A DNA stretch of 64,000 nt, from contig JAHEMF010000007.1 in the NCBI GenBank assembly GCA_024643795.1, forward strand, positions 1-64,000. The letters run 5' to 3'. Source of the stretch: Bacteroidota bacterium. GTDB lineage: Bacteria; Bacteroidota; Bacteroidia; AKYH767-A; OLB10. Under the pieces are notes generated by a model that saw only the letters and a list, made by a program, of their open reading frames with translations, ran no database searches and was not told the DNA's origin. Positions 38,143 to 64,000 of this stretch are shown piece after piece. The position numbers and the translations under genes were made by a program. Position 1 is the stretch's first letter. Each line of letters begins with the position of its first letter.

Positions 38143-40047
38143 TTATTTTTTGACAAACTTGTTTGAATAGACTTTGTTGCCAATAACTGTGTTTACTGTG
38201 TACATACCTGCAGCATAAGTGCTAAGGTTGATATCCAGATTATATACACCTGTATTTAAGGCCTTTTGTGCATAGCTGTCAACCAGCTGTCCCATGTAAT
38301 TGCGTACTTCAATTGTAAGCTCTACCGCTTCTGTGATATCATACTTCAAGCTTACAAATTCGCTGGCAGGGTTAGGATAAATAGAGATGGTTAATCCTTG
38401 AGTAAGCACTTCATTTACAGATTGAGGTCCAAGGATTGTAGTTACATCAATACAATCATAAACCATATCACTTTGTCCAATCGGGTGCTCACCATTTGGT
38501 GGTACTGAGTGGCCGGGTGATCCATCCTGTTGCCAGAACATACTTACACATCCATCAACATTTTTGGCTGTGGCGTTAAATACTGCTTCGTCAAAATCAC
38601 TGTCTGATACATTGATAGGAGTACTCCATGTTGCACCACCATCTGCAGAACCCTGCACCCAAACATTTCGGTAGCTGAATGCGTTCGGACTTGGGTTTCC
38701 GGAGTCTGTTAATTCCATCAGAGCACAATAAGTAACAAAGAGATTATTGTTTGCATCAACACCTGCAGCAGGCATAGAGCAAATCCCATCATTTCCATAT
38801 CTGCCACCAAGATCAGCAGCAAATGCAGAGGCAACTCCATCACCATCACGATCTGGTGCAGTGGCAATAACTACAGGAGGATTTGATCCCATACCTTCAT
38901 TCCAATACATCAAACCATCTGTTGACAAAAACAGTCCAAGAGGATCGTTAGGAACTTCATCAAGGATCAGCATAGCACCGGCAAATACGTGTGCCATACC
39001 GTTATTATCAAGTACAATGGCGTAAGACCCATCAGTAGTTAATAATGTATCAGCGATTCCGTCAAAGTCAATGTCAGTGATCATGGTTGCATCATCATAC
39101 TTGGTGAATGGGAAATCCATAATTACTGAACGGGTCCAGGTTGAACCATTGTCAGTTGACTTCCAAAGCGCCCAGTCGTCGGTGATATTACCGGAAGTAA
39201 AGACTACGGTGCTACCTGATGCATCTATTGCATAACCATCAGCGCGGAATCCATTATATTCCAGGTCATTTACTCCCGGAGGAATTGCTCTAACAATATC
39301 CCATGTTTGACCACCATCCTGCGAACGGCTGTAATTCAAACATCCATCCAGGCCATTTACCAATGCCCCTCCGTTACCTGTGGGGTAGGAGATATCTATC
39401 ATGTGCACTGAATTGCCGTTGGCACCACCTGCTGCGGTTCTAACCCAAAGGGTTGTTTCGCCATTAGGGAAAGTTGGAATCAAAGTTTGAGTCCAGTTAG
39501 CTCCACCTGCGGTTGCATTTAAGTTAATGGCAGTGGAAACTGTAACACTTTGGTGTGAAACTAATGCTTCACCACCATTGGCCAATTTCACTAGGCTTGG
39601 CCAGCCTCTGCGATCCGTTTCGATACGTGCAGTTGGGAATGAACCCCAGTTTGTACCATCAAAGTAATTGTAACCTGCACCTCTGTCAGGATATGAACCT
39701 CCAAGGTCTGTAGAGAATGTCCAGCATGCTCCAACAGTTCCATTGTTTTTGTAAATACGGTTTTGTACCGAACCATTACTTTGGAGGTCGTAGGTGCTAT
39801 TTCCAATTATCACCTGAGCTGCTGAACTCTTTGAAGTTTGAGATGGCTGAGATGAAACAATTGGATTGAACTTGTTTACGGGTGCTTCTGTTCCACCAAC
39901 AATAGTTTGAGCAGGAGACAATCCGTAATGAGAAGTTACATTTAACCTCTCTTTAACAATGCTGATCGGTTGAGACTGCCTGTTCTGTGCTACTAAGTAG
40001 CAAGTTCCGGCAGATACCATGATCATGGTAAGTAATAATTTTTTCAT
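38143..40047 (-). CDS. T9SS-exported Asp-box protein, paralogue A
   Basis: 634 residues: signal peptide (through CYLVAQ), a beta-rich body and a type A T9SS sorting domain at the C-terminus (ISIYPNPASEFVSLKYD, ending GNKVYSNKFVKK). Three sialidase-type Asp-boxes are visible (SQDGGQTW 242-249, STDNGSTW 297-304, SADGGATW 467-474), indicating a beta propeller. Two DxDxDG loops (DIDFDG 325-330, DRDGDG 399-404) look like Ca2+ sites. Catalytic activity cannot be assigned. It is a paralogue of the next gene upstream (40193-42013). A TATATTTG box lies at 40074-40081. Confidence 0.85.
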   Translation of the reverse strand: MKKLLLTMIMVSAGTCYLVAQNRQSQPISIVKERLNVTSHYGLSPAQTIVGGTEAPVNKFNPIVSSQPSQTSKSSAAQVIIGNSTYDLQSNGSVQNRIYKNNGTVGACWTFSTDLGGSYPDRGAGYNYFDGTNWGSFPTARIETDRRGWPSLVKLANGGEALVSHQSVTVSTAINLNATAGGANWTQTLIPTFPNGETTLWVRTAAGGANGNSVHMIDISYPTGNGGALVNGLDGCLNYSRSQDGGQTWDIVRAIPPGVNDLEYNGFRADGYAIDASGSTVVFTSGNITDDWALWKSTDNGSTWTRSVIMDFPFTKYDDATMITDIDFDGIADTLLTTDGSYAIVLDNNGMAHVFAGAMLILDEVPNDPLGLFLSTDGLMYWNEGMGSNPPVVIATAPDRDGDGVASAFAADLGGRYGNDGICSMPAAGVDANNNLFVTYCALMELTDSGNPSPNAFSYRNVWVQGSADGGATWSTPINVSDSDFDEAVFNATAKNVDGCVSMFWQQDGSPGHSVPPNGEHPIGQSDMVYDCIDVTTILGPQSVNEVLTQGLTISIYPNPASEFVSLKYDITEAVELTIEVRNYMGQLVDSYAQKALNTGVYNLDINLSTYAAGMYTVNTVIGNKVYSNKFVKK

Positions 40048-40073
40048 AGGGTTTAAATATTTAATTCTTTCAT

Positions 40074-40081
40074 CAAATATA
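40074..40081 (-). promoter_or_regulatory. TAnnTTTG -7 box of Asp-box paralogue A
   Basis: TATATTTG on the minus strand, 26 bases before the ATG at 40047. It lies between this gene and the terminator of paralogue B, so the two paralogues are probably transcribed separately. Confidence 0.35.
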
Positions 40082-40145
40082 ATTGAATTGATTTTAATTG
40101 GGCCTCATCTTGACATGAATGTGGGATATTTGACAGTCTTATAAC

Positions 40146-40173
40146 AAAAAACCCCGCATTAGCGGGGTTTTTT
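40146..40173. terminator. Symmetrical terminator after Asp-box paralogue B
   Basis: Twelve-base arms AAAAAACCCCGC and GCGGGGTTTTTT with an ATTA loop. It is downstream of the minus-strand gene ending at 40193 and upstream of the next minus-strand gene, which uncouples the two paralogues. Confidence 0.88.
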
Positions 40174-40192
40174 AGTTCTTAAAGGTGGTAAA

Positions 40193-42013
40193 TTACTTTA
40201 CCAGAACCTTTTCACCATAGATCTTGTCACCAACAATCGTATTTAAAGAATAAACACCTGCTGACAGGTTGTTTACAGAAATACGAATATTATTAACTCC
40301 GGCAACAGCACTTATTTGCTCTGAATAAACAACTTGTCCGAGAACGTTAACAAGTTGAACACTGAATGTAGCAGCATTTTCGAATGTGTAATCTACAAAC
40401 AGAACATCTTTAACTGGATTTGGATAAATAACAGTTTCAACGTTACCGAAAGCAGTTTCATTGATACCAACCGGGTTAGAAATGCCATTGAATATTACTT
40501 CATAAAGTCCTGCTGGATCGCCATCAGGACCTATTTGTGTTCCTGGCTCACCATCTTTGTGGTAAACAATTGGAATAACATCGGCACCAACTCTTTTACC
40601 CATAGCTGTGAATACTTGCTCGTCAAAATCACTTTCTTCAACTGTAGCAGGTGTTGACCAAGTTGTACCTCCATCAGAAGAATACATATAATATGCATTA
40701 CGATAAGATTGCGGATCAACTGGAGCACCATTTGTAGTATTTTCCTGTAATGAAGAATATACCAAGTGTACGTTGTTTTGTCCGTCAATACCTAAGCCAG
40801 GCATTCCAGTAAGTCCACATTGGTACAAGGCAATACTTGGCTCAACTGAGATCATACCGTCACCGTCTCTGTCGTTCATTTCAGCAACCATGTTATTCAA
40901 CAGAGTATTCGCACCCATAGACTCATTCCAGTAGAAAAGTCCATCAGTGCCTGGGAAGTAAGAATAGCTACCACCAGCAGCAGTATCATCATCAAGTACG
41001 AACATTGCACTAGTGGCAACGTGACAAACGTTGTTATTATCAATAACAACAGAAGGGTCCTGACCTGCTACTAAAACAGTGTCGATGATTCCATCGCCAT
41101 CAATGTCAGTTACAGATCCACTTGCAGTGTAATCATAAGGTGCTAATGGGAACTCACTTACTACCGTTGTGGTCCAGGTTGCACCATTGTCAGTTGATTT
41201 CCATAAAGTAAGATTCTCTGTCCAACCACCCATTACGATAGCGATTACATCGCCACGGGCATCTAGGTCATATGCATCTACCTGACCTTCAAAGTATGTA
41301 GCTGCTTCACCAGGAAGAACAACATCTTGATCAACCCAAGTAGCTCCACCATCTAACGAACGGGAGTAGGTCATATAGAAACTTCCACCATTTTCGTTAC
41401 CGATAACGTGCACGCTATTTCCATTTGCACCACCTGTAACCATGCGAGGCCAGGTCATGTTAGTAGTGTCAGGTGTTGATTCAGTCCATGTACCGGTACC
41501 TTTAGAAGATCTTGAAATGAAGTTAGTAGGATTAGTACCATGGTTAACAACATACTCACCACTTTGAGATGTTCCGCTTATATTAGGCCATCCTGTACGT
41601 AAAGTAGCAGACTCAATACGATCTGTTGGAGATGGTCCCCATGTAGTACCATTGAAGTAGTTGTAACCAGTTCCACGGTCAGAGTAGCTAGGGCCCTGGA
41701 TTCCGCGAGTCCATACAACACTTATAGTTCCATCATCCCATCTGTGTACACGGTTACCTGCTGTACCATAGTTAGTTTGCAGGTCATATTCTGTAGTTCC
41801 AATAACTACCTCAGCACCAGAAGTTTTTGATGTAGCTGATGTAGTTACGTTTGCTGATTTCAATGGAGTAATGTCATCGACAGGCTTTACTCTATCTAAT
41901 CTAATGTTTTTGATTGCTGCCGGGAGCTTGTCCTGAGCCTTACGACCCGCATCCTGCCCGAAGGAAGAAAGACAAACAGCCAAAGCAACACCGCTTAGTA
42001 ATAGTTTTTTCAT
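40193..42013 (-). CDS. T9SS-exported Asp-box protein, paralogue B
   Basis: 606 residues from the ATG at 42013 (MKKLLLSG); the frame is open 13 codons further but the signal peptide starts here and ends at SSFGQ. Layout matches paralogue A: Asp-boxes at 219-226 (SLDGGATW), 273-280 (STDNGATW) and 445-452 (SSDGGTTW), DxDxDG loops at 303-308 and 381-386, and a type A T9SS sorting domain (VIYPNPVKDVLFVDY, ending GDKIYGEKVLVK). Shared blocks include DRGTGYNYFNGT and GGANGNSVH. Function is unknown; secretion to the cell surface or medium is inferred from the sorting domain. Confidence 0.86.
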   Translation of the reverse strand: MKKLLLSGVALAVCLSSFGQDAGRKAQDKLPAAIKNIRLDRVKPVDDITPLKSANVTTSATSKTSGAEVVIGTTEYDLQTNYGTAGNRVHRWDDGTISVVWTRGIQGPSYSDRGTGYNYFNGTTWGPSPTDRIESATLRTGWPNISGTSQSGEYVVNHGTNPTNFISRSSKGTGTWTESTPDTTNMTWPRMVTGGANGNSVHVIGNENGGSFYMTYSRSLDGGATWVDQDVVLPGEAATYFEGQVDAYDLDARGDVIAIVMGGWTENLTLWKSTDNGATWTTTVVSEFPLAPYDYTASGSVTDIDGDGIIDTVLVAGQDPSVVIDNNNVCHVATSAMFVLDDDTAAGGSYSYFPGTDGLFYWNESMGANTLLNNMVAEMNDRDGDGMISVEPSIALYQCGLTGMPGLGIDGQNNVHLVYSSLQENTTNGAPVDPQSYRNAYYMYSSDGGTTWSTPATVEESDFDEQVFTAMGKRVGADVIPIVYHKDGEPGTQIGPDGDPAGLYEVIFNGISNPVGINETAFGNVETVIYPNPVKDVLFVDYTFENAATFSVQLVNVLGQVVYSEQISAVAGVNNIRISVNNLSAGVYSLNTIVGDKIYGEKVLVK

Positions 42014-42353
42014 GTTGATTTGATTTTTGGTTAAAAATTGATTGGTTATCAAATAATTATAATTGCATTGCTACTAAAACTGCAAGCAACAGTCAATGCT
42101 TCAAAAGTAAATAAAATCACCAAAAGATGTAGGAATTGTTAACTTTTTGTCATTAAAAAAAGTAACCTCAATATTAAAATAAGATCTATAATAGACTATA
42201 TATGAGTTAGTTAAAATAGGGGTGTGAATTTGATTGATGAACAATTGAAAAACGGGTTGGTGAAAAACTTTTCATATTCGGTGTTGGATGCAAAAATTCC
42301 CACATTTCATAATGAGTTGATTATTAATGATATATAAAACAGTCTGTTTTTGA
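42014..42353. other. Gene-free stretch between the glycosyltransferase gene and Asp-box paralogue B
   Basis: 340 AT-rich bases with no supportable open frame, tRNA or clear terminator. The only promoter-like element is TACTTTTG at 42102-42109 on the minus strand, 88 bases before the paralogue B start, without a well-spaced -33 TTG. The rest, including the part following the glycosyltransferase stop, shows nothing I can interpret. Confidence 0.6.
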
Positions 42354-45792: not shown

Positions 45793-45869
45793 GTGGATGT
45801 AGCTCAGTTGGTTAGAGCACCAGATTGTGGTTCTGGGGGTCGCGGGTTCGAATCCCGTCTTTCACCCCA
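45793..45869 (+). tRNA. tRNA-His (GTG anticodon)
   Basis: Cloverleaf drawn by hand. The D arm starts at 45802, the anticodon stem is CCAGA/TCTGG with loop TTGTGGT (anticodon GTG), the variable loop has 5 bases, and the T arm is GCGGG/CCCGT around TTCGAAT. CCA is encoded (45867-45869). The base at 45792 is G and position 73 is C, which supplies the G-1:C73 pair that identifies tRNA-His. Acceptor pair 6-67 appears to be a T-T mismatch. A strong promoter precedes it and a terminator follows directly. Confidence 0.95.
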
Positions 45870-61440: not shown

Positions 61441-61476
61441 AAAAAGTTAAGCCCACCTGAATCAGGCGGGCTTAAC
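61441..61476 (-). terminator. Terminator of the T9SS alpha/beta-hydrolase gene
   Basis: On the minus strand GTTAAGCCC-G-CCTGA and TCAGG-T-GGGCTTAAC pair along about 15 bp including one G-U pair, followed by TTTTT (61445-61441). It lies 17 bases after the stop of the gene ending at 61494. Confidence 0.82.
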
Positions 61477-61493: not shown

Positions 61494-63029
61494 TTATTCT
61501 AAAACAAGTTTTCGGTTTACTACTCCGGAGGAAACATAAATACTTATCATATAAACTCCGTTTGAGAGATCTTTCCTGTTCAGTATGATCTGTTTTTCTG
61601 ATCGCATCTGTTTTTCGTAAACAATCCTGCCCGACAAATCAGCAATTTCAATCTTTTCTACAAGTATTCCGGCTTGTCCGGGATCAACATAGAAGATGTC
61701 CTTAGCGGGATTTGGATACACTGATATATTTTGTTCAGCGGATTCAAGGTCATTTATACCGGTAGCCAGGTTAAGGCAATAGACAACCCTTGGGTTGATA
61801 TAATTCATGATGGTATCGATATATGTGAGGCCTTTTGTTTTAGACATATCCGGATTTGTGAGCAATGCATTGGCATAAATAACTGCGCCATTTTGACCCA
61901 GCAAAGGAGCTTCAGTAACTACAGTAAGCGAATCGTACCACTCCCAGGGGCCAGCCTGCACCGGTGGGATTGTGGCGAAAGGAAACAAACCTTCAAAACC
62001 TTCATTGAGTTGGTTTGCTGCTAAAGTATAAGGATCAGAGAATCCTGCATTTGCGAAGCAGTTGTTGTTTCCATATTGATTTGCGAACCTTATTATAGAC
62101 CTGGAACCAATTACATCTACTACAGACTGTGGAGGAGTACCTGGAACAAAAACTGTTCCGATATTATATGGAGCGAACGGATCGCCAATTGCATGCATTC
62201 CTATCATAGGTACATCGCCAGCCTCAAGCCATGTTGAATCGCCTAAAGCGCCTCCAAGGTTAAAGGCAAATGAAATATCATTGGAAAATCCAACACTGTT
62301 ATTTGGATTGTTGACTTGGGCTAATCCGCCGTAACCATCATAATCCCCTAATACTGTCTGATTAACATATGGCTGTCCTGCTACAAAACCATAGGTGGCA
62401 TCTGTGATACCACTTACGAATTTTGGTAGTGTTATTTCGGCAGGTTTATCAAGACAAGCGTAGTTAATTGCAATGTATCCTCCTGTGCCTTGTCCGCCCA
62501 GAATAATTACATTAGGGTCAATACCATAATTGTTGCTACCTGCAGCATCGGCTCTGAAGAATCGTACGCAAGCTTTAGCATCCTGAATTGCTCTGTAAAT
62601 GGCCTGTAAAATGGTTCCTCTTCTGATATCCACATTAGTCCCGGCAGGGTTCCATCCTAATCGATAATCCATATTGGCTACTACATAACCTCTTTTGGCA
62701 AATTGTGAGCACATAGCCACAGTTGCGCTGTCATTTCTGCTGCCGGTTGGAGTGCCATTGATATACCGGGGAAGAAAACTTCCGGTATGCATAAAAACGA
62801 TTAATGGACGTTGTGCCAGCGCATCACCTGTTGGTTCATAAACATCCATGTACAAGTCAATGAAGCCTGGTGAAGTAGGTGGGAAAACACTGAAGTTGTT
62901 TCCATAAACAATATTTTTTGTTACCGTAACATTGGAAAATACTTCTGTAAGATAGCGTTGTGCAAATGAGCTGACAGGTAATAAAGACATCAGAGCACAG
63001 GCCAGTAGAGTAAGTAGAGTTCTTTTCAT
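61494..63029 (-). CDS. T9SS-exported alpha/beta-hydrolase-fold protein lacking nucleophile Ser
   Basis: 511 residues: signal peptide (through SSFAQ), an alpha/beta-hydrolase domain and a C-terminal type A T9SS sorting domain (ISVYPNPAKDIFYVD). The fold is recognisable from DLYMDVYEPTGD, the oxyanion region FMHTGSFL, GYVVANMDYRLGW and the nucleophile elbow. In relatives the elbow reads GGESAGGY; here it reads GGQGTGGY at 178-185, placing Gly181 where the Ser should be. It is probably a non-catalytic member, or uses another residue. Gene order gives no clue; the TonB receptor fragment lies upstream. Confidence 0.85.
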   Translation of the reverse strand: MKRTLLTLLACALMSLLPVSSFAQRYLTEVFSNVTVTKNIVYGNNFSVFPPTSPGFIDLYMDVYEPTGDALAQRPLIVFMHTGSFLPRYINGTPTGSRNDSATVAMCSQFAKRGYVVANMDYRLGWNPAGTNVDIRRGTILQAIYRAIQDAKACVRFFRADAAGSNNYGIDPNVIILGGQGTGGYIAINYACLDKPAEITLPKFVSGITDATYGFVAGQPYVNQTVLGDYDGYGGLAQVNNPNNSVGFSNDISFAFNLGGALGDSTWLEAGDVPMIGMHAIGDPFAPYNIGTVFVPGTPPQSVVDVIGSRSIIRFANQYGNNNCFANAGFSDPYTLAANQLNEGFEGLFPFATIPPVQAGPWEWYDSLTVVTEAPLLGQNGAVIYANALLTNPDMSKTKGLTYIDTIMNYINPRVVYCLNLATGINDLESAEQNISVYPNPAKDIFYVDPGQAGILVEKIEIADLSGRIVYEKQMRSEKQIILNRKDLSNGVYMISIYVSSGVVNRKLVLE

Positions 63030-63071: not shown

Positions 63072-64000
63072 TTAGTTTTTGAGGTTTTCAGAGGGAATTG
63101 TGAGGTTGATACTCAGGTAATAAAGGCTGCCAACCAATGGGCCTCCGTAAACTTCATAGTGTTTGTTATCCAGAATGTTAGAGCCCCCTACTTTGAACAT
63201 CAGATTACCATTCATAAATTTATAATTAACCTGTGCGTCAAGTACCCCAAATGATTCTATATACCCGGTAAATTGTGGAGAGCCTTCATATTGATACCCT
63301 TCAACCCATTTAAAGTTTACAGCAAAGCCAAAGTTATTGATGTCGCGACCGTTGAATCCTACATTAAATTTATGTTCCGGTGTATTAAATGCCGGTATAA
63401 GCGGATCGGTAGAACCATGCCTGTCTAGTTTGTTCCATGAATAGTTGGTTATAAGGGCATAATACTTACCCAAATAGTAGTTCAGCCCAACTGATAAGCC
63501 TGAAGTGGTTACCCTGTCGGGGGAGTTTGTGGCTACACGCACTGCGTTGTTGAATGTTAATGTTTTACCAACACCGGGGTAGGTGAGGGTATCTATATCG
63601 GCTCCAAGTTTGTAACCAATGAAGTTGTCATACCAACTGTAATAAGCACTTATGTCAAAATATAATTTATTGCTAAGTGTAGTGCGATAGCCTAACTCAA
63701 GCGTTTTTACCTCTTCAGGTACTACAGGATCAACATCAAAATATTCAAGTGTGTCGAACTTGCTGTTGTAATCGTAAAAGTTAATCAACGACTCTATGGT
63801 AACAAGGTCTTTGTATCCATCTTTATTACCGATGAGTATGGCACGACCCACAGGATAATAAAGGTATTGGTCGGCGAGAGTTGGGTTTCTGATGGCAGAT
63901 GACATAGATACTCTTATAACCTGTCGTTCATCCGGCAGGTAAACAGCTGATAGTGCAGGTGAGAAGAGGTATTCAAAATTCTCGTTCTTATCTACGCGGC
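63072..64000 (-). CDS. TonB-dependent receptor, C-terminal part (truncated by window edge)
   Basis: The frame stays open to the right edge, giving about 308 residues of a beta-barrel C-terminus. The conserved barrel segment FSPALSAVYLPDERQVIRVS followed by MSSAIRNPTLADQY is typical of TonB-dependent receptors, with later strands such as TLELGYRTTLSNKLYFDISAYYSWYDNF (quoted in part: YRTTLSNKLYFDISAYYS). The final strand is YYLSINLTIPSENLKN. The plug domain, TonB box and any carboxypeptidase-like N-terminal domain lie outside the window. Ligand unknown. It is 42 bp upstream of the T9SS hydrolase gene on the same strand. Confidence 0.9.
   Translation of the reverse strand, partial: RVDKNENFEYLFSPALSAVYLPDERQVIRVSMSSAIRNPTLADQYLYYPVGRAILIGNKDGYKDLVTIESLINFYDYNSKFDTLEYFDVDPVVPEEVKTLELGYRTTLSNKLYFDISAYYSWYDNFIGYKLGADIDTLTYPGVGKTLTFNNAVRVATNSPDRVTTSGLSVGLNYYLGKYYALITNYSWNKLDRHGSTDPLIPAFNTPEHKFNVGFNGRDINNFGFAVNFKWVEGYQYEGSPQFTGYIESFGVLDAQVNYKFMNGNLMFKVGGSNILDNKHYEVYGGPLVGSLYYLSINLTIPSENLKN

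Follow-up and report, generated by a model that had tools for sequence, protein, structure and literature searches.

TonB-dependent receptors are numerous in genomes of the kind considered here, and many of them have no known ligand. In animals, neuroligins and other cholinesterase-like non-catalytic proteins are alpha/beta-hydrolases that have turned into binding proteins, and we know of no neuroligin-type protein that is paired with a receptor in the manner described below. TonB-dependent transporters can bear a lid at the cell surface that captures the ligand, as in the case of BtuG and SusD (PMC10404256). BD-FAE, a feruloyl and acetyl xylan esterase, uses a triad of Ser128, Asp237 and His269 (PMC8165983), and T9SS cargo in Porphyromonas gingivalis is anchored via A-LPS (PMC5445135).

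At the end of the 64,000-nucleotide stretch of DNA that we analyzed (hereafter the window), a gene on the minus strand (61494–63029, read from an ATG that begins at 63029 to a stop codon whose last base is 61494) encodes a 511-amino-acid dead alpha/beta-hydrolase of the BD-FAE kind with a T9SS type A sorting domain. The C-terminal part of a TonB-dependent receptor (63072–64000, minus strand, cut at the window edge) lies 42 bp upstream, and pseudo-hydrolase and receptor form a two-gene module. As in BtuB-BtuG and SusC-SusD, a TonB-dependent receptor has a dedicated partner gene. Unlike in those systems, a dead hydrolase carrying a T9SS tail takes the partner's place, no SusD family appeared among its Pfam or NCBIfam matches at E up to 1, and the receptor scores 135.1 bits against the SusC/RagA profile TIGR04056, below its cut-off of 368.25. 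The lids described in PMC10404256 are lipoproteins; the partner in the window is T9SS-type cargo. In the literature searched, which left most subscription papers beyond its coverage, we found no description of the hydrolase-receptor pair.

The hydrolase begins with a signal peptide (amino acids 1–23, 62961–63029, minus strand), assigned by inspection only and predicted to be cleaved before a conserved Gln24-Arg25 (Q24 in 99% and R25 in 96% of relatives). Amino acids 61–194 match BD-FAE (Pfam PF20434) at 40.6 bits against a cut-off of 26.8, and amino acids 437–509 (61503–61721, minus strand) form the C-terminal sorting domain, which scores 45.1 bits for Pfam Por_Secre_tail (cut-off 27) and 39.7 for a second profile (cut-off 23). 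Sixteen other places in the same genome match the hydrolase, nearly all of them through the tail part. An AlphaFold2 model built with 24 sequences reached a mean pLDDT of 82.7, and its amino acids 34–424 match Thermogutta Est2 (7bft) with a Z score of 24.2 in VIA-align (rmsd 2.6 over 237 residues); 6xyc (Z 22.6) and 6tkx (Z 22.5), which we take to be BD-FAE going by the entry titles, match nearly as well. An earlier sequence-only reading had described the fold and the sorting domain as intact, and both descriptions hold. Just 3' of the gene, an intrinsic-terminator-like hairpin of 14 pairs (8 G-C) precedes a T run (61446–61476, minus strand; L068 1477–1447). It has the longest stem among the six terminator-like sites in the 4.9 kb scanned, a number not above chance (4.0 in shuffles, sd 2.4).

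With BD-FAE esterases the window hydrolase shares the Pfam family, the fold and the acid Asp; it differs from them in that Gly replaces the Ser and the His is gone. Translation confirms that the nucleophile elbow reads GGQGTGGY (amino acids 178–185, 62475–62498, minus strand) and that residue 181 is Gly, encoded by GGC at 62489–62487 on the minus strand, which the sequence-only reading had reported without the strand. The elbow aligns gap-free to Ser-bearing paralogues, and HMMER sets Gly181 on the X in the sequence of 7bfr, an Est2 entry whose title describes phosphorylation by paraoxon. The esterase fold comes from comparing the predicted structure with solved hydrolases, and the placement of the elbow from sequence alignments. 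Along the chain, the window hydrolase carries the motifs HTGSF, GGQGTGGY, HAIGDPFAPY and VQAGPWEWY, compared with HGGSF, GGSSAGAF, HGTxDxxVPY (mostly) and GxHVPY in the tandem Ser-His-Asp paralogues of family f3. Such a paralogue (for example L050:3465–4931) adjoins the dead gene and has the Pfam family and the T9SS tail in common with it, but keeps Ser-type motifs and falls in a separate Ser clade.

The former oxyanion loop (amino acids 81–84, 62778–62789, minus strand) is HTGS here and HGGS in the Ser paralogues, so that it is not intact, contrary to the sequence-only reading. The catalytic-acid motif DPFAP is kept (amino acids 283–287, 62169–62183, minus strand), and the loop expected to hold the catalytic His reads VQAGPWEWY (amino acids 357–365, 61935–61961, minus strand), including the conserved Trp362 and Trp364. 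The protein has only two histidines, His81 and His279, and therefore none within amino acids 280–511. Nucleophile, catalytic His and one oxyanion-loop Gly are changed, and Asp283 and the fold are kept: among the features of a catalytic serine esterase, the acid Asp is present, and the Ser nucleophile and a His after the last core strand are absent.

The same loss extends across the relatives. Starting from the window hydrolase and 145 distinct ORFs, a filter of 110 bits and 250 core residues left 128 rows. A first long family of 101 rows was drawn at ≥420 bits with an elbow not starting SSAGA, a circular rule that drops the Ser paralogues L047, L049, L050 and L051 (427–459 bits); for the final count, also of 101 rows, Ser rows were excluded by name according to a tree. 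This tree, which holds 115 rows after removal of 13 contained or truncated ones, came from a quick search, has long branches and used an alignment that contained the elbow column. A branch with SH-aLRT 98 separates 15 Ser rows from the other 100, where residue 181 is Gly in 91, another non-Ser residue in six and Ser in three (L053, L055 and L056, forming one clade). Across the 101 aligned rows, residue 181 is Gly 92 times, Asn three times (L133, L135 and L154), Ser three times, and Asp (L052), Ala (L152) and Tyr (L128) once each. The GGESAGGY that the sequence-only reading had ascribed to relatives is not what close relatives carry. They have GxG[ST]GGY, and among the rows read a distant one, L085, comes closest to GGESAGGY with GESAGGF. 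The His loop of the three Ser181 members has no His either, so that loss of the His probably preceded or coincided with loss of the Ser.

Other positions are held tightly. Lys203 and Asp264 are invariant in all 101 rows and Asp283 is conserved in 97, and the only four tryptophans of the window hydrolase recur at Trp126 (100 rows, one gap), Trp267 (97), Trp362 (95) and Trp364 (95). Across nine close pairs, which are not independent as L016 and L030 were used twice each, dN/dS is 0.025–0.13. We rejected decay or sequencing error, given the low dN/dS and a Gly181 common to 92 of the 101 rows; the earlier argument against decay is strengthened by this conservation over many families. Because Gly181 and the lost His go together with a kept acid and fold and with purifying selection, the gene product is a conserved pseudo-hydrolase, and the label 'esterase' is misleading for this clade. 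Derivation from an esterase, as first suggested, therefore stands, with maintenance by selection added to it; the binding role suggested alongside is plausible. Tandem dead hydrolases occur as well, with elbows of Gly and Tyr in L128:950–3956 and of Gly and Asn in L133:925–4103, and genome G158 has a pair of dead hydrolases (L107 and L137) with Gly in both.

The receptor in full is a 935-codon frame that runs to about C63:65876 and comprises CarbopepD_reg_2, Plug and barrel domains. Its NCBIfam matches all lie below their cut-offs and yield no family name as a clue to the ligand, and its predicted model (pLDDT 37) is unusable. Upstream of it lies a 1477-codon frame on the minus strand, TamB-like by eye (L068:5971–10401, C63 about 65970–70400), and related frames occur in just two others of the 36 loci read, L039 and L040.

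Across 395 genomes of the class, 163 carry both genes, 8 the hydrolase only, 5 the receptor only and 219 neither (Fisher p 1.8e-93, inflated by shared ancestry). Of the 176 genomes that have at least one of the two genes, 163 have both, as expected of the cognate gene pair of a lidded transporter. The cut-offs behind these counts, 1e-60 for the hydrolase (within a gap from 7e-69 to 1.6e-53) and 1e-160 for the receptor, were picked after inspecting the tables, and receptor orthologues were called by E-value cut with two candidates scored per genome. A weaker receptor match is present in three of the eight hydrolase-only genomes (G335, G344 and G363); 13 further genomes with a weak receptor match alone were scored receptor-negative, and one of these 13, G210 (8.1e-157, family f42), which counts as having neither gene, would move to the receptor-only group if the cut-off were a little looser. 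Within families, for which only genomes among the matches listed were used and labels were assigned by hand, 13 of 18 families were informative, and in 10 of these no genome breaks the pairing (Mantel-Haenszel odds ratio 55, corrected chi-square 60).

The two genes are also mostly adjacent. Among the matches listed, 122 genomes have both, and in 96 of these the two genes share a strand and are no more than 2 kb apart, the receptor preceding the hydrolase in 93 cases and following it in 3; two more share a contig at 2.6–4.4 kb, and 24 have the genes on different contigs. The receptor was found in 21 of the 36 loci read, covering 14 of the 18 families, and no third gene was shared by more than six of these loci; third genes spanning more than one family reached at most 4 of the 36 loci, some of them antisense frames. 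Seven other genomes of the window's family (those of L041, L042, L044, L045, L046, L048 and L057) show no linkage in the loci read and have the receptor on a separate contig, at 58–65% identity and in one case with an internal stop. A Lewinella contig, whose hydrolase has Asp at 181 (L052), carries a receptor match of 45% identity 50 bp upstream on the same strand, and the genomes of the three Ser181 members contain receptor homologues (47–48% identity) outside the loci read. At L049:1367–3076, the receptor lies between a Ser-bearing paralogue upstream and a dead hydrolase downstream.

The conserved loss of catalytic residues and the near-constant pairing with the receptor point to a product that is therefore probably a surface binding partner for import, not an enzyme. 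We favor, with somewhat better than even confidence, the reading that the dead esterase is a T9SS-exported surface ligand-binding subunit of its cognate receptor, in a role like that of SusD or BtuG. The broader claim, to which we give even odds, is that the pair constitutes a new TonB-dependent uptake module in which a T9SS-exported dead esterase captures ligand for one receptor lineage in many families. In this reading, the protein with the esterase fold has lost its Ser nucleophile and catalytic His while the acid Asp and the fold stayed. T9SS would export the pseudo-hydrolase, which would remain on the cell surface, and its old catalytic pocket, possibly lined by the conserved Trp126, Lys203, Asp264, Trp267, Trp362 and Trp364, may capture a ligand, perhaps a glycan. 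The pseudo-hydrolase would then hand the ligand to its receptor, which would import it in a TonB-driven step. If so, the capture subunit of this module is a decommissioned esterase, unlike SusD or a BtuG-type lipoprotein, and a receptor lineage with its own pseudo-enzyme would represent another route to surface capture subunits, through T9SS. The pocket of the dead enzyme would also offer a handle on the ligand that is open to direct screening.

The four conserved tryptophans, the kinship with BD-FAE and the extra modules of some members weakly suggest that this ligand is a carbohydrate. Two f54 members (L147:951–4412 and L148:2–2344) have the dead hydrolase fused to CBM_20, X25 and related starch-binding-type modules, and f15 members carry SusE domains, above cut-off in L142 and L075 and below it in L143. 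The scan covered 16 members, picked mostly by length, and found no extra module in 11 of them. L147 additionally has a dockerin match.

Several other readings would also accommodate a dead elbow. The product might be a non-catalytic surface or adhesion protein outside transport, its linkage to the receptor reflecting co-regulation, and a sorting tail attached to a dead hydrolase domain would suit such a protein, as would the separate contigs in 24 of the 122 genomes among the matches listed. We consider this unlikely, as the genes co-vary in all 13 families that are informative, with no exception at all in 10, and the receptor is present in all seven unlinked genomes checked in the window's family. 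A different role within secretion would make the dead hydrolase a factor of T9SS itself, with a receptor related to PG0534, the TonB-dependent receptor that PMC5445135 reports as essential for T9SS in Porphyromonas gingivalis. The T9SS tail on the hydrolase fits this idea, but 219 of the 395 class genomes yielded neither of the two genes, counted regardless of whether T9SS is present, and we judge it very improbable.

Readings that retain catalysis have to place it elsewhere in the pocket. The protein could still be an enzyme for another reaction, with a rebuilt non-classical site made, for example, of Lys203, Asp264 and Asp283, and the conservation of these three (101, 101 and 97 of the 101 rows) would suit such a site. 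We regard this as distinctly unlikely, since neither the nucleophile position nor the His loop keeps a Ser, Thr, Cys or His in every row, and Glu363, tried as a new catalytic acid and rejected, varies among the rows (E 50, D 29, Q 9, others). We likewise rejected a relocated His at position 385, which is present in 31 of the 101 rows and is Tyr in the window hydrolase. Thr182, which the sequence-only reading had offered as an alternative, lies one residue past the lost nucleophile, is Ser in many relatives and might keep the protein an active esterase. A hydroxyl residue does occupy position 182 in 100 of the 101 rows, but Ser (54 rows) and Thr (46 rows; Ala in one) swap freely there, which would be unusual for a hydrolase nucleophile, no His is near, with only His81 and His279 in the protein, and the three Ser181 members are likewise without a loop His. 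Catalysis by Thr182 is not supported, and we consider it very improbable.

How common the hydrolase appears depends on the genome sample. At E up to 0.001, 48 of 61 genomes match (its own included), some through Ser paralogues only, and a profile search of the class matched 264 of 395 genomes at 1e-10. Of these, 171 have scores like those of the long family. This count takes in family f47, in which the three members fetched have Ser at 181, and the elbow residue was read in part of the 171 genomes. A phylum-wide draw found the hydrolase in only 7 of 198 genomes at 1e-40.

Elsewhere in the window, two neighboring large proteins of 634 and 619 amino acids are encoded at 38143–42052 on the minus strand and are alike over much of their length; the C-terminal part of the second matches the T9SS tail of the window hydrolase. 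A single tRNA gene, for tRNA-His, was detected in the window, at 45793–45869.
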